64,000 nt of DNA from Micromonospora sp. FIMYZ51 (GTDB lineage Bacteria > Actinomycetota > Actinomycetes > Mycobacteriales > Micromonosporaceae): positions 4,960,001 through 5,024,000 of the forward strand of contig NZ_CP134706.1 in assembly GCF_038246755.1 (NCBI RefSeq), read 5' to 3'. Every line of letters starts with the position of its first letter. Within the stretch, counting starts at the first letter, position 1. The position numbers and the translations under genes were made by a program. Of this stretch, positions 15,175-25,442 are shown piece by piece. The notes under the pieces are model-generated. The model worked only from the letters and a program-made list of their open reading frames with translations, was not told where the DNA came from and did not search any database.

Positions 15175-17355
15175 TCAGCCTCGACCACCGAGCCAGCGGC
15201 GGAACTCGGCGAGAGGCGAACCGGGGTCGGCTGACGGGGCGCGCTCCACAGGGCGGCGCGGATCGCCGACCAGGGCACGGGTGGGTGGGGTGAACGCCTC
15301 GGCCGGGTCGCCGTCGACGGCGGTGGCGATGATGCGCGCCACCGCCTCGATCACCCGGGCCTGCACTGCCGCGCCGACCGAGTCGGTCGGATCGTCCGGG
15401 TTGGCGGCGATGCCGGCCACCGCGACCTGCGGGGTGAAGCCGACGAAGCTCTCCGTGGCGGCCTGGTCGGAGCTGCCGGTCTTGCCGGCCACCGGTCGGC
15501 CGTCGAGGATGCGGTTCACGGCCGTGGCGGTGCCACCGTTGCACTGCCCGAACGCGGACTGCTGGCCCACCGGACAGCGGGCCGCGTCGGTGGCCGCCCG
15601 GGCCACGTCGGGGTCGAGCACCTGCCGGCAGGACGGGTCGCCGACCGGCAGCCGCTTACCGTCCGGCGCGGTCACCGACAGCACCGGCACCGGCGAGCAG
15701 TACGTCCCCTCCGCCGCCACGGTCGCGTACGCGTTGGCCAGGTCGAGCGGGGTGGTGGCGGCCACGCCGAGGGTGAACGCCCCCCAGTTTGCCGCGTTGT
15801 CCTGCGCGAACCGGGCGTCCGCCTCGGCGCGGAAGGTGATGCCCAGCCGCTGTGCCATCTCGACCACCTTGTCCTGACCGACCTGCTCGGCCAGCCAGAC
15901 GAAGTACGTGTTGACCGAGCGGCCGAAGCCGTCCCACATCATCCGGTAACCGTCCATCCACTGCGGGTTGGCATTCGCCGGGCACCACCGGCCGGCGCAG
16001 CTGCTGTCGTCCTGGCCGGCGGCATAGCGGGTGGGCAGCCGGCTGGGCGCGTCGAAGCCGGTCGCGAGCGGCCGGCCGGACTCCAGCGCGGCGAGCATGG
16101 TGAACAGTTTGAACGTCGAACCGGCCTGGTAGCCGGCGACCCCACCGCCGCCGGAGATCAGCGGGTTCACGGTGTTCGGGTAGTTGACCTGTCCGTCGGG
16201 GTTGGCATCGACGCTGTAGTGCCGGTTGACCGCCATGGCCAGGACCCGGCCGGTGCCGGGCTCGACCGCGGCGATCGGCAGGGCCCGCGGGTTGTCGTAC
16301 CCGTAGACGCTTGTGGCCTGCTGCTGGGCGGTTTTCTGCACCTGCGGGTCGAGCGTGGTGACCACGGTGTAGCCACCCCGGCGCAGCGCCTGCTCGCGCT
16401 CCTCGGCGGTGTCGCCGAATTCCGGCTGGGCCAGCCACCAGCGGCGCAGGTAGTCGCAGAAGAATCCCCAGCCGTCCCGGGCGCTTGCGGTGGCGGCGCA
16501 CCCGTTGGGCTGCGCGCTGGGCTCCAGCGTCAACTCCTCGGCCTTGGCCCGGGCCGCCTGGTCGACGGTGATCGCCCCGGTGGCGACCATGGAATCCAGC
16601 ACGTACGCCCGCCGGGCCAGCGCCGCGTCGGCGTCGCCGTCGATCGGGCTGTACGCCTCCGGCGCCTGCACCAGGCCGGCGAGCAGCGCCGCCTCGGCGA
16701 GGGTCAGCTCGGCCGGTGCCTTGGAGAAGTAGCGCTGACTCGCGGCGGCGATGCCGTACGCCCCGGAGCCGAAGTACGCGATGTTCAGGTAGCGGTTGAG
16801 GATCTCGTCCTTGCCGAGCCGCTGTTCCAGCGCGTTGGCGTACCGGATCTCCTGGAGCTTGCGCCCGATGGTCTGCTCGGTGGCTGCGGCCCGCTGCTCG
16901 GCGGTGCGGTTCGGGTCGGTCTTGAGCACGTTGCGTACGTACTGCATGGTCAGCGTCGAGCCGCCCTGCTCGGTGCCGGAGGTGACGTTTGTGACCACCG
17001 CCCGCAGCATGCCGCGCAGGTCGACCCCGCCGTGGTCGTAGAAGCGCCGGTCCTCGGCGGCCACGATCGCCTGCCGCATCACCGGTGCGATCTCCGCCAG
17101 CGCCACGTCGGTGCGGTTGACGTCGAAGAACGTGGTGATCAACGTCTTGCCGTCGTTGGCGTAGAGGTAGGAGCGCTGCGGGGTGGTCGGGGTGCGCAAC
17201 GCATCCGGCAACGCGGCGTACTCGCGCAGGGCCGCCTGGGCGGTGAGGCCGAGCAACAGGTTGCCCGGCAGCGCGGCTACCGCCAGCACCAGCCCGGCGA
17301 GCACGCCGGCGAGCAGGACGGTGAACAGCCGCGATAGCGGCGTCGGAGTGGCCAT
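15175..17355 (-). CDS. Class A penicillin-binding protein (bifunctional transglycosylase/transpeptidase)
   Basis: 726 residues. A single N-terminal membrane anchor (10-38), then a GT51 glycosyltransferase domain with catalytic Glu101 in AAEDRRFYDHGGVD, GSTLTMQYVRN and GKDEILNRYLNIAYFG, then a transpeptidase domain with the serine motif GSTFK, SVN and KTGSS. It polymerises lipid II and cross-links peptidoglycan outside the membrane. No PASTA repeats follow, and the C-terminal 60 residues are low complexity. Start taken at the ATG 17355 just before the anchor; an in-frame GTG at 17382 is possible. Stands alone on the minus strand and converges on the ThDP gene. Confidence 0.92.
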   Translation of the reverse strand: MATPTPLSRLFTVLLAGVLAGLVLAVAALPGNLLLGLTAQAALREYAALPDALRTPTTPQRSYLYANDGKTLITTFFDVNRTDVALAEIAPVMRQAIVAAEDRRFYDHGGVDLRGMLRAVVTNVTSGTEQGGSTLTMQYVRNVLKTDPNRTAEQRAAATEQTIGRKLQEIRYANALEQRLGKDEILNRYLNIAYFGSGAYGIAAASQRYFSKAPAELTLAEAALLAGLVQAPEAYSPIDGDADAALARRAYVLDSMVATGAITVDQAARAKAEELTLEPSAQPNGCAATASARDGWGFFCDYLRRWWLAQPEFGDTAEEREQALRRGGYTVVTTLDPQVQKTAQQQATSVYGYDNPRALPIAAVEPGTGRVLAMAVNRHYSVDANPDGQVNYPNTVNPLISGGGGVAGYQAGSTFKLFTMLAALESGRPLATGFDAPSRLPTRYAAGQDDSSCAGRWCPANANPQWMDGYRMMWDGFGRSVNTYFVWLAEQVGQDKVVEMAQRLGITFRAEADARFAQDNAANWGAFTLGVAATTPLDLANAYATVAAEGTYCSPVPVLSVTAPDGKRLPVGDPSCRQVLDPDVARAATDAARCPVGQQSAFGQCNGGTATAVNRILDGRPVAGKTGSSDQAATESFVGFTPQVAVAGIAANPDDPTDSVGAAVQARVIEAVARIIATAVDGDPAEAFTPPTRALVGDPRRPVERAPSADPGSPLAEFRRWLGGRG

Positions 17356-17450
17356 GGTCACCAGGATTGCCGCGAAAGCCACCTTCCGGCCACCTCGGGC
17401 GGCCGGTTGTCAGCCAATTCACGGTCAGTTGGCAGCAGCCTTTGTGCTGG

Positions 17451-17840
17451 TCAGCCCCCGAAGAGCTGATGCCAGCTGAGCAAACCCGGCAGCAGGAGCA
17501 CCGCGCCCACCAGGGACAGCACGGTCAGTACCAGCGGTAACCGGGCACGACGCAACGCGCGACTCAGATACTCCTGCCGGATCTCCTGTTTCTCTGCCTC
17601 ACTGAAGTCACGGTCGATGTAGAGATCCGCCTCCCGCTCCGCGGTCTGGAACAGGTGCGCCGCCCAGGTGGTGAAGGCTGCGGCGACCACCCAGAGCGCC
17701 GAGTCCAGCGCCACCTTCGCGGTGGAAACCTGCGGGTCGGGCGGCCCCGTCGACACCGACGTCAGCATGTTGATCCCGGCTCCGGCGAAGAGGCCGGCAA
17801 GGAAGTTCAGCGTCGACGGCGCCGGGATCCCGACGCTCAC
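17451..17840 (-). CDS. Small three-helix membrane protein, last gene of the TIR/NTPase cluster
   Basis: 129 residues, unrecognised. Hydrophobic segments near 11-28, 45-62 and 98-118 suggest two or three membrane helices, with a charged helical stretch (TAEREADLYIDRDFSEAEKQ) between the second and third. The GTG start overlaps the TGA of the NTPase gene as GTGA, so it is translationally coupled to it and very probably works with it. A membrane protein ending a TIR/NTPase operon could be an effector or membrane tether; this is inference from context only. Confidence 0.75.
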   Translation of the reverse strand: MSVGIPAPSTLNFLAGLFAGAGINMLTSVSTGPPDPQVSTAKVALDSALWVVAAAFTTWAAHLFQTAEREADLYIDRDFSEAEKQEIRQEYLSRALRRARLPLVLTVLSLVGAVLLLPGLLSWHQLFGG

Positions 17841-20557
17841 CGGTCCGACTCCGGCCAGGGCAGGTCGGGCCAGGCCGTACCGCAGATCCGCTTGCCCAGG
17901 GAGTCGATGCGCTCCAAGAGGTCCAGGCTGACGCTACCGTCGAGTTCGGCGGCAAGCGCGGTGAGCTCTGTCCGGTAGGTCACCAGTTCCTGGACCTTCT
18001 CCAGCACCGCCGGCGTCTGCACCGTCGCATCCCGCTTGGCGATCTGGTCCCGGATGGTGCCCTCGATCTGGTCGACGCCGCGCCGCCAGGCGCGCAGTTG
18101 ACGGGAGGTCAGCGGTACACCGGTCCAGGTGGGGGCAGTCTCGGGCAGCACGGGTTGGGTGCGGGGTTCGGCCGGATCAGGCCGCCCGTGGTTGAGCACC
18201 TCTCCGATGAGCTTGAGACTCTCCATCTGCACGATTCGCCAGACGATGTCGGCCAGCTGCGCGGCCACGAACGGCACCCGCAGTCGCTCCTCGGGGGCGG
18301 TGGGCAGCAGGGTCGGGCTCCGCATCGCCCGCAGCACCCGCTCGAACAACGTCTGTAGGTGTTCCCGGGTGCCGGTGGCGGCCTCGGTGCAGAGCAGATT
18401 CGCCTCCAGCACCTGCGACAGGTCGATCTCGCGACCGGTCACGGTCCACTCCTGCTCCCGCGCCATCAGCCAGGTGTGCGCGGTCTCCATCGCCTGGTGC
18501 ATCGGCATCCCCGCGCGGACCAGCGCGCTGAGGCACATCGCGGTGGTGGCCTCCTCGCGGTTCCAGGTGCCGGTGCCGCTGCGCCACCAGTTGTCGAACG
18601 GCCCGCCGTCGGCCACCCGGCGCAGCAGCCAGTTGCAGGCGTCGCGTACCACCGGATGATCGATCCGCAGGTTTGCCTGGCACAGCCCGAGCACGATCCG
18701 GGCCGTCACCCAGGGCACCCGCGCCGGATAGAAGTTGCCGTCGGCCTCCTGCGCCCTGGCGGCCACCTCCACCAGCTGGTCGATGCGGTTCTGTTTGCGA
18801 GACAGGGCCGGCGCGGAGCCCTCGAAGCCGAGCAGCAGACCCAGTACCCAGTTGCGGTACATCCGATCGGGGTCCAACTCCTCGGCGGTCATGCCCGCCA
18901 GGTGCGGCGCCCCGCCCAGCAGCTCGTCCTCCTTGGCCATCGACCGCTGAATCTCCTCGAAGTCGGCGAAGTCGGCGGTCACCTCCTCCACCGGCTCCGG
19001 AAGAACGCAGCCCGGGTCGTGGTAGCGCCACCGGGCCCGGACCCGACTGGCGATCGCCCGCCACGCCTCGTCATGACTGAGCTGGTGCAGGGCACTGGCG
19101 GCGAAGATCGCGGCCCCCAGGTTGTCCTCCCAGGTCGGATCGTCGGCGCTGCGCTGCCGCAGGGACCGGCCGAGCCGGCTGAGCGTTTCCCAGGTGGTCA
19201 CCAGGTAGAGGCTGTCCCGACGGGCCTCGTCCGGGGAGATGAGGCTGTCCAGCCGGCTCAGCGTGGCCTTCATCAGCCGGTCGCCGCCGCGTTGCAGGTG
19301 CAGCCAGACGATCCGCTCCGGGCGACGCCACCGCCGGTCGGCGTCCCACTGGTTGCGGGCCCGGTTCATCACCAGCTGCGCACGTCGGCGCGACCCGATC
19401 TGGTACGCGCCGTCGATCTGGAACACCAGCCCGGCGTCGCGCAGTTGCTGCAACGGCTCCCGCAGATGCCCTGCCTCCCGGACCGCCATCTGCAACTCCA
19501 GCATGCCCAGGCAGGCCAACCGGTACAGCGCCTCCTGCTGGCCCGCCCCGGTCACCTCCCGGGTGTAGTACTCCTCCAGATCCGCCTCGGTCGGCACCCG
19601 GGCCAGGGTGTCGGACAACTCGATCGCGGTGAGCGCGATGTGCGCGTCGTCGCGCGCCAGCGACCGGATCCTCGGCCAGAGCGCCTCGTCGATGTCACTG
19701 TCCACCAGCAGCTGATTGACCAGCTGCCGGCCCTCCGCCAGCACCGGGGTCAGCGCACGGGCCGGCTCGCCCCGACGCAGGATCTCCGCCGCCGACTTCC
19801 AGCTGGTGGCCAACACCTGAAGGCTCAGGCCGAAATCGGTACGCAGCCGCTCCAGGCAGTCGAACAACTCGTTGCGCACCGGCAGGTTCGCGTGCAGGTT
19901 CTCCAGCACCACCAGGTACCCGCCGGTCCGACTGCGCTCCTGCTCCAGCAGCGCCAGCACGATGGACGCCGGCCCGTCCGCCGGATCGCTGAGGTTCAGC
20001 CACACCACTCCGTCGCCCTGGGCCAACCGCTGTTCGACGACGTTGGCCACCAGAGCCGACTTGCCGCACCCGTGGTCACCGACCACGACCACGTCGTGCT
20101 TGGCCTCCAGCATCTCGTCGGTCTTGATCGAACTGGAGGTGATCCGGTGCAGGCGAGCGTAGTACTCCAACGTGGTCTGGTTCGGCAGCTGTGCGTGCCC
20201 GACCCGCTTGGGCTGCCACCAGTCGCCAAGCGTCTCGCCCCAGGCGATCAGGGCGTAGCTCAGCAGCACCAGCGGGGAGACACCGACCGACGCGGCAGCG
20301 ATCCGGACCGCCGCCTCGGGAAGCCACACCTGCAACGGCTCGCCCGGCGTCTCGACCCGCACCATCAGGCCATGCACACCGTTGACGAACTGCCGGGTCA
20401 CCTCGTTGGAGACGTGCAGCGCCGCACGCCGGCCATTCGGCAACGCGGTCTGCGCGAGCAGATCCAGCCGCGCGGCATCGAGCAACTCAAGGATGCTGGC
20501 ATCCGAGGCGAGGGCGCTCACCGCTTTCCAGCCGGCTGGTGGTTCGACCGTCGTCAC
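17837..20557 (-). CDS. STAND-like P-loop NTPase with C-terminal helical repeats
   Basis: 906 residues. An N-terminal region (1-130) without recognised domain, then an NTPase core: Walker A GDHGCGKS at 160-167, a beta strand with acidic end YLVVLEN at 214-220 as Walker B, a TSWK-like sensor segment near 250 and a winged-helix-like region (to about 420). The C-terminal half is alpha-helical; around 630-720 it has QEADGNFYPARVPWVTARIV- and WNREEATTAMCLSALVRAGM-like units that resemble the alpha/alpha-toroid repeats of terpene cyclases and prenyltransferases, with no DxDD or other catalytic motif. This is the plan of sensor/signal NTPases that oligomerise on a trigger. GTG start with an AAGGGGGT site; 3' overlap with the membrane gene. 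Domain calls are by eye. Confidence 0.75.
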   Translation of the reverse strand: MTTVEPPAGWKAVSALASDASILELLDAARLDLLAQTALPNGRRAALHVSNEVTRQFVNGVHGLMVRVETPGEPLQVWLPEAAVRIAAASVGVSPLVLLSYALIAWGETLGDWWQPKRVGHAQLPNQTTLEYYARLHRITSSSIKTDEMLEAKHDVVVVGDHGCGKSALVANVVEQRLAQGDGVVWLNLSDPADGPASIVLALLEQERSRTGGYLVVLENLHANLPVRNELFDCLERLRTDFGLSLQVLATSWKSAAEILRRGEPARALTPVLAEGRQLVNQLLVDSDIDEALWPRIRSLARDDAHIALTAIELSDTLARVPTEADLEEYYTREVTGAGQQEALYRLACLGMLELQMAVREAGHLREPLQQLRDAGLVFQIDGAYQIGSRRRAQLVMNRARNQWDADRRWRRPERIVWLHLQRGGDRLMKATLSRLDSLISPDEARRDSLYLVTTWETLSRLGRSLRQRSADDPTWEDNLGAAIFAASALHQLSHDEAWRAIASRVRARWRYHDPGCVLPEPVEEVTADFADFEEIQRSMAKEDELLGGAPHLAGMTAEELDPDRMYRNWVLGLLLGFEGSAPALSRKQNRIDQLVEVAARAQEADGNFYPARVPWVTARIVLGLCQANLRIDHPVVRDACNWLLRRVADGGPFDNWWRSGTGTWNREEATTAMCLSALVRAGMPMHQAMETAHTWLMAREQEWTVTGREIDLSQVLEANLLCTEAATGTREHLQTLFERVLRAMRSPTLLPTAPEERLRVPFVAAQLADIVWRIVQMESLKLIGEVLNHGRPDPAEPRTQPVLPETAPTWTGVPLTSRQLRAWRRGVDQIEGTIRDQIAKRDATVQTPAVLEKVQELVTYRTELTALAAELDGSVSLDLLERIDSLGKRICGTAWPDLPWPESDR

Positions 20558-20622
20558 CGGCGTACCCCCTTCTGCGGCGGCTCACCCTGGGTCAACCGGC
20601 GATCACCGGGACACTGTCGATG

Positions 20623-22119
20623 CTAACCGCCGAGCCGGGCACTGTCGTCATGAGACAGCGCAGCGCAGAGCCTGAGGTACTTGGTGCGGACCAGTTCGCC
20701 GTCGACCTCGCCGACGTTGCTCTCGGCGAGCGAGAAGCCCCGCCGGCCGAACGCGGTCCGAACCTCGTCGGCGTCGCCCAGATCGTGGCTCATCATCCGG
20801 GTGGCGTACCGGCGCACCGCCGCGGACAACTCCTCCAACTGCACCTGGAGCAGCCCACGCCAGCCGGCGGCACGCTCCCGGAACCGCAACTCGAAGTCGT
20901 CGACCAGGTCGGTGACCTGATGCCGGTCATCCTGCTCGTCGACGCTTGGCCACTCGTTGCCGGGGTGCAGCCGCACGGTGGTGACGACCCGGCCGCCGGG
21001 GCGCAGCAACGCCGACCAGCTGTCCAGCACGGTGGACGCCATGGCCCGGTCGAAGCGGGTCAGGAAGGCGTCGGCGACCACCAGGTCGAACTTTCCGGCC
21101 GTGGTCAGCTGCCGGACCGCGTCCGGGCAGGTGATATCGGCCTGATGTCCCTGGATCTCGGTACCCACCTGTCTGGCGTACCACTGACAAGCCAGTAGTG
21201 GAGTCTGACACCTGTCCACCACGTGCACGTCCAACGTGCCCGGCAGCTCGCCGGTCGCCGTACGGATCGCGTCGAGCACGAAGGCGAGCGTCGTGTAGTC
21301 GGCGGTGCCGCTGATCAGTACCCGCCGGGCGCCGCCACGGACGGCCTCGACCAGGCGTCTACTGTAGAACTCCGCGTGCCACTGCGGACTGCTCACCATG
21401 TTGAACAGGCGCAGATACTGCCAGGCCGAGTGGTACCAGGAGCAGTTTGTGCTGTCCTGATGCGACGGTCCGCACGACATCGGCGCCATCGCGTAGAGCA
21501 TCTTGGCCGACTGGAGCAACACGCTGGTCAGTTCCGGTCCGGGTGCGGACTGCTCCTGGTTGGCCGGAGCCCGCCGCATCAGGGCATCCCAGAGCAGCGC
21601 AGCCCGTTGTACGTCCTCGGCGTGCTGGCTGACCACCCAGGAGGTCATCCCGTCGCGGCCCAGCTCCTGGCGGACCACCACCTGGCGGTCGATCAGCCAC
21701 ATGCCAGTCATCGGAACCTGGGTGGCCTCACCGCCGATGCGTACCGCCACCTTCACCGGGTGCAGGTCATGCTGGCGGTCCTCGTCCACCTGACGGTCGA
21801 TCTCAGCGCTACCCACATCCTCGCCGGGCACGAGATACATCCGGCGGACCGTGGCGCGCCGCGCCAACTGCCGGAACACCGCGCGGGAGAACAGGTCCGC
21901 CGGCCGGCCGACTGCGGAGTACGGCACGATCTGGCACAGTTCCTGGTGCACGCCCGAGGCCAAGCCCTGGACCAGTTCGTCGACCGCCGCGCCGGGCAGT
22001 CGTACGCTCTGCGGGTCGGTGCCCTCGTACGACGCCCGGAAGAAGACGTTCGCTCGACGGGCCCGCTCGATCAGATCGGCAGGCGACGCTGGTCTCGTGG
22101 CACTAACCGGCTCGGTCAT
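20623..22119 (-). CDS. SAM-dependent methyltransferase with N-terminal TrmB-like domain
   Basis: 498 residues. The first 180 residues (VRRMYLVPGEDVGSAEIDRQ, then MWLIDRQVVVRQELG and QHAEDVQRAALLWDALM) look like the phospholipase-D-like sensor part of TrmB-type regulators, without a helix-turn-helix. From about 240 a Rossmann methyltransferase follows: RRVLISGTADYTTLAFVLDA (motif I region), DVHVVDRC (acidic end of strand 2), FDLVVADAFLTRF and LLRPGGRVVTTVRL. Substrate unknown. ATG 22119 has GGAGGGGG upstream, and the gene starts only 13 nt after the EgtD-like gene's stop, so the two are co-transcribed. Seen by me as one of two methyltransferases in a TIR/NTPase cluster. Confidence 0.75.
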   Translation of the reverse strand: MTEPVSATRPASPADLIERARRANVFFRASYEGTDPQSVRLPGAAVDELVQGLASGVHQELCQIVPYSAVGRPADLFSRAVFRQLARRATVRRMYLVPGEDVGSAEIDRQVDEDRQHDLHPVKVAVRIGGEATQVPMTGMWLIDRQVVVRQELGRDGMTSWVVSQHAEDVQRAALLWDALMRRAPANQEQSAPGPELTSVLLQSAKMLYAMAPMSCGPSHQDSTNCSWYHSAWQYLRLFNMVSSPQWHAEFYSRRLVEAVRGGARRVLISGTADYTTLAFVLDAIRTATGELPGTLDVHVVDRCQTPLLACQWYARQVGTEIQGHQADITCPDAVRQLTTAGKFDLVVADAFLTRFDRAMASTVLDSWSALLRPGGRVVTTVRLHPGNEWPSVDEQDDRHQVTDLVDDFELRFRERAAGWRGLLQVQLEELSAAVRRYATRMMSHDLGDADEVRTAFGRRGFSLAESNVGEVDGELVRTKYLRLCAALSHDDSARLGG

Positions 22120-22132
22120 CCCGGCCCCCTCC

Positions 22133-23152
22133 TCACCGCCGCGACGCGGTCACGACCAGGTGGGTGCCACCTGGCGGTTGAACCGCGTCGCGGACCTGCC
22201 AACCCGCCTCCCCGACGGCGACGATGACGTCACGGGGACGGAATCTGCGGGACTGGAAGCAGCGGATGCGATGCCCTGCGGGCAGCCGACAGCCGTCCAG
22301 AGGCACCGGTCGGCGCAGCACCGCCTCGCCCACCACCGCTTCGTCGCGCCAGCTCAGCACGAAATCCAGATCGGTCTCGGCGACACCGGCGGCCAGCAGC
22401 GGTTGCAGGGCGGCGGCACGGAACTCCGCAGACCGGTAGGGGGCCAGAACCGCCTCCGGGGCCGGGCAGTCCGCCGTACCGAGAGCGACGCTGAGCAGCA
22501 GCACGTCACCGGTACGCAGCGCGTCGTAGATGTTCGCCAGCACCTCGACGGGCCGCTCGACGTTGCCGAGGGTGTGCCCGAGCAGGCATCCCACCACGGG
22601 GTCCGGGCCCACGCGCCACCGCTCCACGTCCCGGCAGGTGCCGTGCTCAATGTCCCACACCTGTGAGTCAACGCTCATCCGGTCGCCGGCGAAGCGGGCG
22701 AGCCGGGCACAGGCGATGCCGAGCAGGGTCTCGCTGAAGTCGAGTGCCAGATATCGCTGACAGGGTCGTCCCCGGTTGGCCAACCGGTCGAGGAAGGCTC
22801 GGCTGCGACCGCCGTTGCCCGGCCCGATCTCGACCAACGCGAGCGCCCCCGCGGCCAGCACATCGGCTGCCACCAGGGCATCTGCCTCCTGTTGGGCCGA
22901 GGTCAGCATGCTCAGGTAGTCGGCGGAGCGGGCGTACGCGTCGTGGGTGCGAGCGGCGCTGCCGGCGTACGCGAACTTCAGCGGCACCTGGCCGACCCGG
23001 ATGGCCTTCAGCACCGCCGCCCGATGCGGCTCGCGCTCGAAATAGGGGGAATCCAGGTGAGTCGAGAACGGTCGGCGGCCCGCGCACGACGAGGATGAAC
23101 GAAGCGTCCCGGTGCCAGCCGTCGCACCATTCCCGCATCTCACCTCTGCCAC
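22133..23152 (-). CDS. EgtD-like SAM-dependent methyltransferase
   Basis: 339 residues. Similar in layout to EgtD (histidine N-alpha-methyltransferase, DUF2260): ALVEIGPGNGGRSRAFLDRL (motif I, 105-124), YLALDFSETLL, VVGCLLGHTLGNVERPVEVL (the GxxxGN stretch), LRTGDVLLLSVAL, and IRCFQSRRFRPRDVIVAVGEAGW at the end. Ergothioneine partners (EgtB, EgtC) are absent, so the substrate is probably not histidine for ergothioneine. GTG 23152 has GGAGGGG 6 nt upstream, but the first about 33 codons show poor third-position GC and another frame looks more coding there; the conserved part begins at LDSPYFEREPHR. The 198-nt gap to the TIR gene could hold a second promoter. Confidence 0.75.
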   Translation of the reverse strand: MAEVRCGNGATAGTGTLRSSSSCAGRRPFSTHLDSPYFEREPHRAAVLKAIRVGQVPLKFAYAGSAARTHDAYARSADYLSMLTSAQQEADALVAADVLAAGALALVEIGPGNGGRSRAFLDRLANRGRPCQRYLALDFSETLLGIACARLARFAGDRMSVDSQVWDIEHGTCRDVERWRVGPDPVVGCLLGHTLGNVERPVEVLANIYDALRTGDVLLLSVALGTADCPAPEAVLAPYRSAEFRAAALQPLLAAGVAETDLDFVLSWRDEAVVGEAVLRRPVPLDGCRLPAGHRIRCFQSRRFRPRDVIVAVGEAGWQVRDAVQPPGGTHLVVTASRR

Positions 23153-23350
23153 AACGCCCCTCCGACGAGGTCAGAGCCCACGGCCGATTACCTGACGATA
23201 AACGTAAGCCGCAACCCGCGCATCGCCTCCGGCTCCCCATTTCGCAATCTGCAATCAGCGCACCCGCATGGAACTATCTAACACGGGTGAGCAACAATCA
23301 GCTCCATCGATCAGTCGACCAATTTTCGGCCGAACGGAGGATGGTTGGAT
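23153..23350 (-). other. AT-richer spacer inside the TIR/NTPase cluster
   Basis: No convincing gene. GC is clearly lower than around it. A TAGATA word (minus strand, near 23275) could be a -10 box, but no well-spaced -35 was found. It separates the TIR gene from the four tightly packed downstream genes. Confidence 0.35.
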
Positions 23351-24364
23351 TCACCGGGATTCGCTTGCACCGTCCGACCCGTCTGCGCGCCCGCTGCGTT
23401 CCAGCAGTTGGGCGACCGCGTCGCGAGCCGCAGAGGTGAAGGTGGTCGGCGTGAACACGTGCCGCTGCCAGTCCCCGTGCAGCCCACCGATGTCGTCGAC
23501 ACCCTCTTCCACGAGCAGCACCATGTACTTGCGGTACGCGAGCGCAGCACCCTTCTCTTCGATCAACCACGCGCTCGTGGCGTACCTCTCCTCGTCTCCG
23601 GCGAACCGCCGGGCTCTGGTCATCAGCGACACGAAGAACTCGCAGTCGCGGATCCGGTTGAGCACCGCCGCGCCGACGTACCCGTCGGCCCGACGGCCCG
23701 TGACCACTGTGAATCCCCGATCCGTCAGCAGCCCGGACAGCCCGCGCACGTAGCCGTCCTCCTCGGCGAACCGGTACGACAGGAAGACGCTCGCGGGCGT
23801 ACCGGTCGACCGCGCCGATCCCGGGCGCGCCGCCGCCAGGCTCTGGGTCTCCTCGACGTCCTCGACCAGCTGCTCCAACTTGTCATCGCCGGTGTCGGCG
23901 GCGATGTCCCGGACCCGGTCGAGCAACCGGTCGGTGCGCGAGGCGCCGGTGGCCCGCAGCCGGAAATCCCGGCATTTGACAAGCATCGCCTCGGTCTCCG
24001 CGGCCAACATCTCCGGCGGGGTCCGCTTGTCGAGGGTGTACATCTCCTTCAGCCCGGTCCGGGTGCCGCGGTAGAACATCGACGCGTGGTCTTCCACCGT
24101 TGCCAGGTCGACGTGCAGCACGACGGCCATGCCGGCCGCCGACCAGCCGAGCGCCAGATCGCCGGCACGGCCCAGCCCGGTCACCAGCGGATCGATAATC
24201 ACCACGTCGAAGGCGTCGTTGGCGACGGCGCGCTCGGCCTCGTCAAGGCTCTCCTCCACCACCACCCGCTCGACCAAGGGGCTGTCGGTCAACTCCTGAT
24301 AGAGCCGTCGGACGGCGGGAACGGAGTCACACAGGAGCACGGTCAGTCGGGACAGCGTAGGCAC
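23351..24364 (-). CDS. Receiver-like plus TIR domain protein
   Basis: 337 residues. Residues 6-125 look like a degenerate response-regulator receiver (LTVLLCDSVPAVRRLYQEL, AFDVVIIDPLVTG, with Asp58 where a phosphorylatable Asp would be). A helical linker follows. Residues 190-325 form a TIR-like domain: VFLSYRFAEED at 193-203, GFTVVTG, CEFFVSLMT, and SAWLIEEKGAAL at 265-275, where Glu269 or Glu270 would be the NAD-hydrolysing residue; then YMVLLVEEG. TIR proteins in bacterial immunity cleave NAD or make cyclic ADP-ribose signals. Start GTG 24364 has GGAG 9 nt upstream. First gene of the five-gene cluster. TIR fold fairly clear, receiver assignment moderate, enzyme activity inferred. Confidence 0.78.
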   Translation of the reverse strand: MPTLSRLTVLLCDSVPAVRRLYQELTDSPLVERVVVEESLDEAERAVANDAFDVVIIDPLVTGLGRAGDLALGWSAAGMAVVLHVDLATVEDHASMFYRGTRTGLKEMYTLDKRTPPEMLAAETEAMLVKCRDFRLRATGASRTDRLLDRVRDIAADTGDDKLEQLVEDVEETQSLAAARPGSARSTGTPASVFLSYRFAEEDGYVRGLSGLLTDRGFTVVTGRRADGYVGAAVLNRIRDCEFFVSLMTRARRFAGDEERYATSAWLIEEKGAALAYRKYMVLLVEEGVDDIGGLHGDWQRHVFTPTTFTSAARDAVAQLLERSGRADGSDGASESR

Positions 24365-24641: not shown

Positions 24642-25442
24642 TCAGGCCGTGCCCAACGGTCCGGGGCCACTCGGTTCGGCCGGGCCGGCGGTGGCGACGC
24701 TGGCGCTTGTCGCGTCGCGGAGGATCTCCCGGGGCATCAGGCGACCCGACCGGTAGCAGATGCCGATGCCGGCGATCAGCACGAAGATCGCCCCGAAGGT
24801 CTGCAACGAGCCGATCAGGGCACCACCGAGGCCGAGCAGCGGGCTCGCGATCATCAGCATCGTGCCGTCCCCGATGCTGAACATTCCCGAGCGGGCCACC
24901 GCCCACCCGGTGAGCAGCCAACCCACGCTGTAACAGGTCGCACCGACAAGCACCAGCGACCGGGCGGTGGTGCCGAACACCGGGGTCTGCTCGGCGAGCC
25001 CCGCGAAGGGCAGCATGAGCACCGTGCCGGCGATGCTGACCAGCAGCCCCGCCACCGCGGCGTGCCGGCTACGGGTGGCGGCGAGCAGGCCCGCCAGGCC
25101 GAGCAGGGCCAACAGGCCGAGCCAGACCGCGAGCACCCAGCCGACCAGGTACAGCGGTCGGCCGTCGGCCGGGTACGGGTCGTTGCCGACCCCGCCGTCG
25201 CTGGCCATCGCCACCGCGCAGTAGAGAATCGCGTACGCCGGCAGCAGCCAGACGGCGGCCCGGGCGAGCCGGCGCAGTGACCACGCCCAGCTCGCATTGG
25301 TCGCCGGTCCCGGCGGGGCCGGGTCGTCGACGAAGGGCAGTACGCCGAAGCCCCCACCGGTACGCCGGGTGCCGAGCGGTCCGGCGGGATCGTGTGCCCC
25401 CGGCACCTCCGGCGCAGACCACAGGCGCTTCAGCGGTTCCAT
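24642..25442 (-). CDS. Multi-pass membrane protein, unknown
   Basis: 266 residues. A soluble, Pro/Gly-rich N-terminus (1-55) is followed by about six hydrophobic helices between 58 and 245 and a short tail. No transport or enzymatic motif is recognised. GTG/ATG context is ordinary; the start is at ATG 25442. It is separated from the TIR gene by 277 nt with a promoter candidate, so I do not place it in that operon. Composition is normal for the host. Confidence 0.7.
   Translation of the reverse strand: MEPLKRLWSAPEVPGAHDPAGPLGTRRTGGGFGVLPFVDDPAPPGPATNASWAWSLRRLARAAVWLLPAYAILYCAVAMASDGGVGNDPYPADGRPLYLVGWVLAVWLGLLALLGLAGLLAATRSRHAAVAGLLVSIAGTVLMLPFAGLAEQTPVFGTTARSLVLVGATCYSVGWLLTGWAVARSGMFSIGDGTMLMIASPLLGLGGALIGSLQTFGAIFVLIAGIGICYRSGRLMPREILRDATSASVATAGPAEPSGPGPLGTA

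Follow-up and report, generated by a model that had tools for sequence, protein, structure and literature searches.

In the portions of PMC8195603 and PMC7159879 drawn on here, STAND-centred systems with exchangeable effectors occur in multicellular bacteria, including actinobacteria, and conflict systems, several of them linked to STAND proteins, are described with TIR, alpha/beta-hydrolase and GT4 domains as their effectors (PMC8195603). The locus analysed here, from a Micromonospora genome that forms one contig of 7.05 Mb, has in common with the systems described in those portions a predicted NTPase switch and exchangeable effectors of the same kinds, but differs from them in having two conserved methyltransferases, a terpenoid-cyclase-type toroid and effectors carried as separate genes. 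The words 'methyltransferase' and 'methylase' are absent from the main text of PMC7159879, and at the 12 of 23 places considered in PMC8195603 they concern histone methylation in eukaryotes. The cassette is of the same broad kind as the effector-swapping NTPase conflict systems, with the methyltransferases and the toroid as the new part.

AVAST (Avs) and methylation-associated defence (MADS) systems provide further comparisons. Structures of Avs3 and Avs4 were among the Foldseek matches to the model of the cassette NTPase (E 3.4e-4 to 8.7e-4, at TM-scores of 0.08-0.17), and PADLOC matched Avs2 at E 0.016; against the Avs2 equivalog the protein reached 8.6 of 1000 bits, far under the cut-off; unlike Avs proteins, the cassette NTPase has a toroid C-terminus and methyltransferase partners. 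MADS loci likewise combine a methyltransferase with a P-loop protein, the similarity to mad2 being partial and confined to the SAM domain (E 2.2e-6 and 6.3e-6) and the P-loop match to mad8 weak (E 0.043). PADLOC (2023 library) yielded weak matches only, to mad2, mad8, Avs2 and HamA, and nothing diagnostic for Thoeris, Avs, MADS or its other systems, in agreement with an earlier sequence-only reading that had matched the genes to no named system; searches of an open-access library brought up no account of the cassette. By its appearance, the cassette is a defence or self-surveillance system not described before, with a presumed role in immunity.

Gene content and layout

The sequence-only reading had proposed five same-strand genes in the window (the whole stretch of 64,000 nucleotides analysed), and all five were found on the minus strand between 17451 and 24364, just where they had been placed. 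Features of the locus are as follows.

24642..25442, minus strand: gene bordering the insertion site on the left, predicted membrane protein
23351..24364, minus strand: accessory gene with a receiver-like N-terminus and a C-terminal TIR domain, 337 aa (profile-profile alignment)
23990..24364, minus strand: receiver-like N-terminal region, residues 1-125, weak (Response_reg best E 0.018)
23390..23803, minus strand: TIR domain, residues 188-325 (hhalign 93%, E 3.2e-7)
22133..23152, minus strand: core gene 1, EgtD-like (Methyltransf_33) methyltransferase with an altered substrate pocket (profile and residue conservation)
20623..22119, minus strand: core gene 2, methyltransferase MT2 with a DUF6879-like front and a putative class I SAM domain
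17837..20557, minus strand: core gene 3, NTPase-toroid protein, 906 aa (profile and model)
19778..20179, minus strand: P-loop NTPase part of core gene 3, residues 127-260 approximately (nSTAND3, Foldseek)
18227..19204, minus strand: (alpha/alpha)6 toroid of core gene 3, terpenoid-cyclase type, residues 452-777 (predicted model)
17451..17840, minus strand: core gene 4, small membrane protein, overlapping core gene 3
15175..17382, minus strand: gene bordering the insertion site on the right, penicillin-binding protein (Transgly and Transpeptidase)

Intergenic gaps were 198 nt (TIR-EgtD), 13 nt (EgtD-MT2), 65 nt (MT2-NTPase) and -4 nt (NTPase-membrane gene), and the close spacing of the two methyltransferases and the GTGA overlap of the last two genes, both noted in that reading, are real. 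Codon-position GC was coding-like for all five genes, with third-position GC of 0.83-0.91, slightly under that of the four flanking genes measured (0.90-0.94). The TIR start at 24364 is supported by an in-frame stop upstream in one other copy (L001), and the remaining copies have either no earlier start or one just a single codon upstream. Core gene 4 keeps the conserved motif LNFLxGxxAGxGINxxT. All 75 pairwise dN/dS values, from five genes in six genus copies, fell between 0.05 and 0.47, and thus no gene appears to be decaying. An open reading frame at 15656-17422 was out of frame and was dropped.

Distribution and insertion site

Across the genus, MT2 matched in 6 of 160 genomes, and all six carried all five genes in identical order at one site, between the same two border genes. 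The cassette was absent from this site in all six relatives inspected, which are 6 of the 14 genus genomes with border-gene matches other than G000 (the host genome) and G153. The border-gene matches lay 134-468 bp apart in five of these relatives; in the sixth (L096, 5399-7141), a gene for an alpha-galactosidase with ricin-type lectin domains takes the place of the cassette, which makes this a possible hot spot of integration. In a tree of the flanks, the window grouped with an empty genome (support 0.966), the carrier L091 with another empty genome (0.956) and L001 with L089 (1.000). In the cassette itself, the window and L001 were closest, with NTPase identity of 90% versus 84% for L001-L089, whereas flank identity was 90% for window-L001 versus 97% for L001-L089. 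Because carriers and empty sites interleave and cassette and flanks disagree, the block appears to have moved horizontally at this one site, or else to have been lost many times with recombination.

In the family, MT2 matched at E 1e-20 in 18 of 354 genomes, and 16 of these (16/354) carry all four core genes; of the other two loci, G1009 has, within the stretch examined, no more than the EgtD-like gene and a shortened MT2, and G102 only a SAM-domain relative of MT2. The order EgtD-MT2-NTPase-membrane gene recurs in 15 of the 16 copies, interrupted in L010 by a hydrolase gene; in L125 it is rearranged, with the membrane gene first. Linkage, which the sequence-only reading had suggested examining, is non-random: the four-gene core holds together across the family, and all five genes together only in the genus among the copies examined.

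Order-wide, with two candidates scored per genome, the NTPase matched in 49 of 397 genomes; among the matches listed, full-length ones came only from G000 and G153, and the rest were short toroid or P-loop stretches. Class-wide, with three candidates scored per genome in 394 genomes, MT2 gave two partial SAM-domain matches at E 1e-6 besides its own genome, and plasmids held no MT2 or NTPase relative at E 1e-3. Enrichment near defence genes, another check that the sequence-only reading had suggested, was not evident: the nearest neighbours in the window encode a penicillin-binding protein and membrane, Band-7 and beta-lactamase-family proteins.

A conserved pair of methyltransferases

The first core enzyme was rightly read as EgtD-like (Methyltransf_33, E 3.8e-15; solved EgtD structure, E 2.8e-11). 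EgtD is the L-histidine N-alpha-methyltransferase of the ergothioneine pathway, and the likeness is one of family by profile: the cassette protein keeps the SAM motifs ExGPGxG and GxTxGN, and falls short of the EgtD equivalog, with 34.2 bits versus a cut-off of 290.9. At the position of EgtD Glu282, which we take to be a residue with a role in histidine binding, the cassette family has Phe299, invariant in all 16 copies; the Met252 position holds Ala or Val, and Ser284 is retained as Ser301. The changes at the first two positions make histidine an unlikely substrate, judging from sequence.

The second enzyme had been credited with a TrmB-like front, which found no support: Pfam at E<=1 lists no TrmB family in eight members. 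DUF6879 recurs in the front of seven of the eight (best E 4.2e-4), and Methyltransf_25 matches all eight (best E 9.1e-5, with the window protein under the cut-off). Motif I is unusual (LIxGxAD), Asp302 is invariant, and CxWYHxxWQxLR and DAFLTR are further invariant motifs.

The SAM-site residues of the EgtD-like enzyme and MT2 residues Gly271, Asp274 and Asp302 are kept in 16 of 16 copies. Such conservation would suit methyltransferases that modify or restrain the effector or mark self, in the manner of an antitoxin, so that loss of methylation releases TIR; we consider this very improbable, since both enzymes persist in copies that have no recognised effector, and no DNA methyltransferase family is among the Pfam matches of either. 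A role in DNA modification was also considered, and found to be without support.

Exchangeable accessory genes

The accessory protein of the window had been read as a receiver joined to a TIR domain. The receiver part proved weak, with Response_reg matching in two of six members (best E 0.018), and the TIR fold stood, through indirect similarity. Pfam gave no TIR match for the window protein at E<=1 or for six members at E<=10, nor did an NCBIfam search. Profile-profile alignment (hhalign) to 26 TIR domains gave 93% probability, E 3.2e-7 and a score of 42.5, against at most 17.8 for 40 column shuffles, 13.1 for the reversed alignment and 13.1 for the receiver part; this single result, from a query with Neff 1.3, carries the assignment. 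AlphaFold modelling on six sequences reached a pLDDT of 43, too low to judge the fold. Invariant columns make up 67% of the TIR domain versus 40% of residues 1-125 across the six copies, and Glu270, the putative catalytic residue, lines up with the Glu that TIR relatives conserve and is invariant in all six. We suspect a cell-suicide enzyme, presumably acting as an NADase.

TIR accompanies the core in 6 of 16 copies, all of this genus; TIR relatives were absent from 149 other family genomes, and the other ten core loci gave no TIR-profile match. The six copies form one clade at one site and therefore count as one linkage event, not six. Three copies in two genera (L009, L121 and L122) instead carry a Ser_hydrolase gene followed by a GT4-conflict gene (E<=8.5e-110), and L010 has an alpha/beta-hydrolase (Abhydrolase_1) gene between MT2 and the NTPase. 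No accessory gene was recognised in L123-L128, six loci that were judged by absence of the TIR profile and by the strands and first residues of neighbours, with Pfam on one neighbour. The unit thus consists of four core genes and an accessory gene that can be exchanged, and is a 'five-gene system' only in this genus among the copies examined. Immunity-type partners, as first proposed, are upheld in that conflict-system effectors (TIR, GT4-conflict and hydrolases) adjoin relatives of the core, while the six copies with no recognised effector mean that the core may have another job. The penicillin-binding protein gene near the L122 cassette, as in the window, is taken as a coincidence.

An NTPase joined to a toroid

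The large protein of the core had been described as a STAND-like P-loop NTPase with helical repeats. Its P-loop is upheld by weak similarity to nSTAND3 in eight of eight members (best E 1.1e-5; the window protein scores 19.1 bits, with a curated cut-off of 27.2); the Walker A sequence is GDHGCGKS. Foldseek matched its predicted structure (pTM 0.46) to ORC, Bcs1, RuvB and Avs3/Avs4; E-values were 3.4e-4 to 9.0e-4, TM-scores low and rmsd large. Most of what had been called 'helical repeats' takes the form, in the model, of an (alpha/alpha)6 toroid of terpenoid-cyclase type, closest to squalene-hopene cyclase in a fold test; the VIA-align comparison covers region 437-787, and the first 436 residues were barely tested there. 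Squalene-hopene cyclase and the complement/alpha2-macroglobulin TE domains are among the nearest known counterparts of cassette parts. We regard the protein as a weakly STAND/Orc-like NTPase joined to a predicted terpenoid-cyclase-type toroid.

Conservation differs between these parts. The toroid motifs YPxRVxWxTAR, GTGxWN and TAMC are invariant in 16 of 16 copies, whereas 9 of 16 have an altered Walker A, so the proposed STAND switch is not intact universally. The canonical GxxxxGK[ST] is seen in L010 and in each of the six TIR copies; the three GT4 copies have Arg in place of the Lys, and the six copies with no recognised accessory gene are changed in other ways. The Walker B acid is present in 10 of the 10 copies that have an accessory gene versus 0 of 6 without one (thus missing in 6/16); an intact Walker A together with an acidic Walker B is found in the window, the five other genus copies and L010. 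This pattern represents about four lineages, not 16 independent points, and gene conversion could mimic it.

Loss of NTPase motifs alongside well-conserved methyltransferase and toroid motifs, as in the six copies with no recognised effector, is also what would be expected of a metabolic core with an optional add-on. The core might accordingly be a biosynthetic or housekeeping operon for modifying a small molecule or lipid, in which a metabolite is the substrate of the methyltransferases, the toroid protein serves as enzyme or carrier and the membrane protein as anchor, with TIR and the other accessory genes as passengers or separate regulators. We hold this to be unlikely, though it is the main rival: the resemblance of the toroid to squalene-hopene cyclase fits it, as does the L060 relative of the MT2 SAM domain, which sits in a row with AdoHcyase-like, methyltransferase and GNAT genes, but the patchy, mobile distribution, the weak nSTAND3 similarity in eight of eight members and the GT4-conflict genes beside three copies from two genera speak against it.

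Co-divergence and a proposed mechanism

Pairwise distances of the four core genes were strongly correlated (0.89-0.99) over 15 loci; L127, whose membrane gene has an uncertain start, was excluded. In the six copies with all five genes, TIR distances correlated with those of the NTPase at 0.96, MT2 at 0.81, EgtD at 0.61 and the flanks at 0.59, and TIR-NTPase exceeded TIR-MT2 in 99.55% of 2000 site bootstraps. The TIR-NTPase partial correlation was 0.96 given the flanks and 0.90 given the flanks and MT2; that of TIR and EgtD was 0.00 given the flanks and the NTPase. Yet the EgtD and MT2 genes lie between those of TIR and the NTPase. EgtD distances followed MT2 best (0.91). The correlations hint at one unit of TIR and NTPase and another of EgtD and MT2; the split is not clean, since MT2-NTPase reached 0.89 and the two methyltransferases also followed the flanks (EgtD 0.79, MT2 0.85). 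These values rest on six genomes and 15 dependent distances, and gene conversion could mimic the pattern.

They bear on whether TIR stands beside the core by chance, as unrelated cargo of a single ancestral insertion at one hot spot that has travelled along since. The 198-nt gap to EgtD, the confinement of TIR to the genus in the genomes and core loci searched and the alpha-galactosidase gene that occupies the same site in L096 would all agree with such an accident, which we nevertheless think doubtful: the TIR gene is intact and under purifying selection in six of six copies (pairwise dN/dS 0.17-0.40), and its co-divergence with the NTPase exceeds that with EgtD, which lies between them.

The reading we favour, tentatively and at somewhat less than even confidence, is a horizontally moving conflict cassette of two coupled modules, in which an NTPase switch controls exchangeable effectors and the methyltransferases act on a monitored ligand. 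In the core module, the EgtD-like enzyme and the second SAM methyltransferase would work as a pair alongside a membrane-tethered NTPase-toroid protein, and would produce or alter a ligand, small or lipid-like, for the toroid pocket to read. In the effector module, the NTPase part would be the switch over an accessory killer enzyme, receiver-TIR here and, elsewhere, Ser_hydrolase with a GT4-conflict glycosyltransferase or another alpha/beta hydrolase. Infection or another disturbance would alter the ligand and switch the NTPase, whereupon TIR would destroy NAD and the cell would be stopped. We infer the ligand from the fold of the toroid and from the small-molecule-like methyltransferase of EgtD type. 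A more specific proposal, SAM-based immune signalling in which a methylated small-molecule or isoprenoid-type ligand from the methyltransferases is read by the terpene-cyclase-like pocket of the membrane-tethered NTPase and answered by swappable effectors, seems to us rather improbable in that full form.

If the favoured reading is true, the parts list of bacterial conflict gains a core of two methyltransferases and an NTPase-toroid protein, and a possible receptor fold, of terpene-cyclase/complement type, that goes unmentioned for such a switch in the portions of PMC8195603 and PMC7159879 used here. Natural copies with and without effectors would allow gene-by-gene dissection of its logic.

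Related genes in other contexts

Several relatives of single cassette proteins lie elsewhere. SAM-domain relatives of MT2 in G102, G053, G073, G657 and G684 were set aside as cassette copies, since no profile of EgtD, NTPase, membrane protein or TIR matched their stretches at E 0.1. G315, G223 and G493 encode proteins of about 1100 aa that scored E 4e-5 to 1e-4 with the NTPase profile in the order-wide search and gave no hmmsearch match at E 0.1. In the host genome, a TIR_2 search matched four places, the cassette TIR gene not among them, within G000:C1:1171786-1174490 and 4799919-4807560; two of the four are roughly 180 kb from the cassette.

Another gene row holds SAM-domain relatives of MT2 at L060 (6035-10803) and L061 (6277-11084), where an AdoHcyase-like protein, a canonical methyltransferase, the MT2-like protein and a GNAT-like protein stand together (by Pfam in L060, by layout in L061). 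Genome G987, which has the full core, also encodes a lone MT2-like SAM-domain protein apart from the cassette (L130, 8139-8963). Near two of the GT4 copies, L009 (13779-17552) and L121 (14771-17402), gene rows of small GTPase, DUF742 and roadblock type are, judged by eye, presumably conservon-like. These two loci also have in common, upstream, a small gene whose motif resembles GAVIALSGTLLxDVRRDR.
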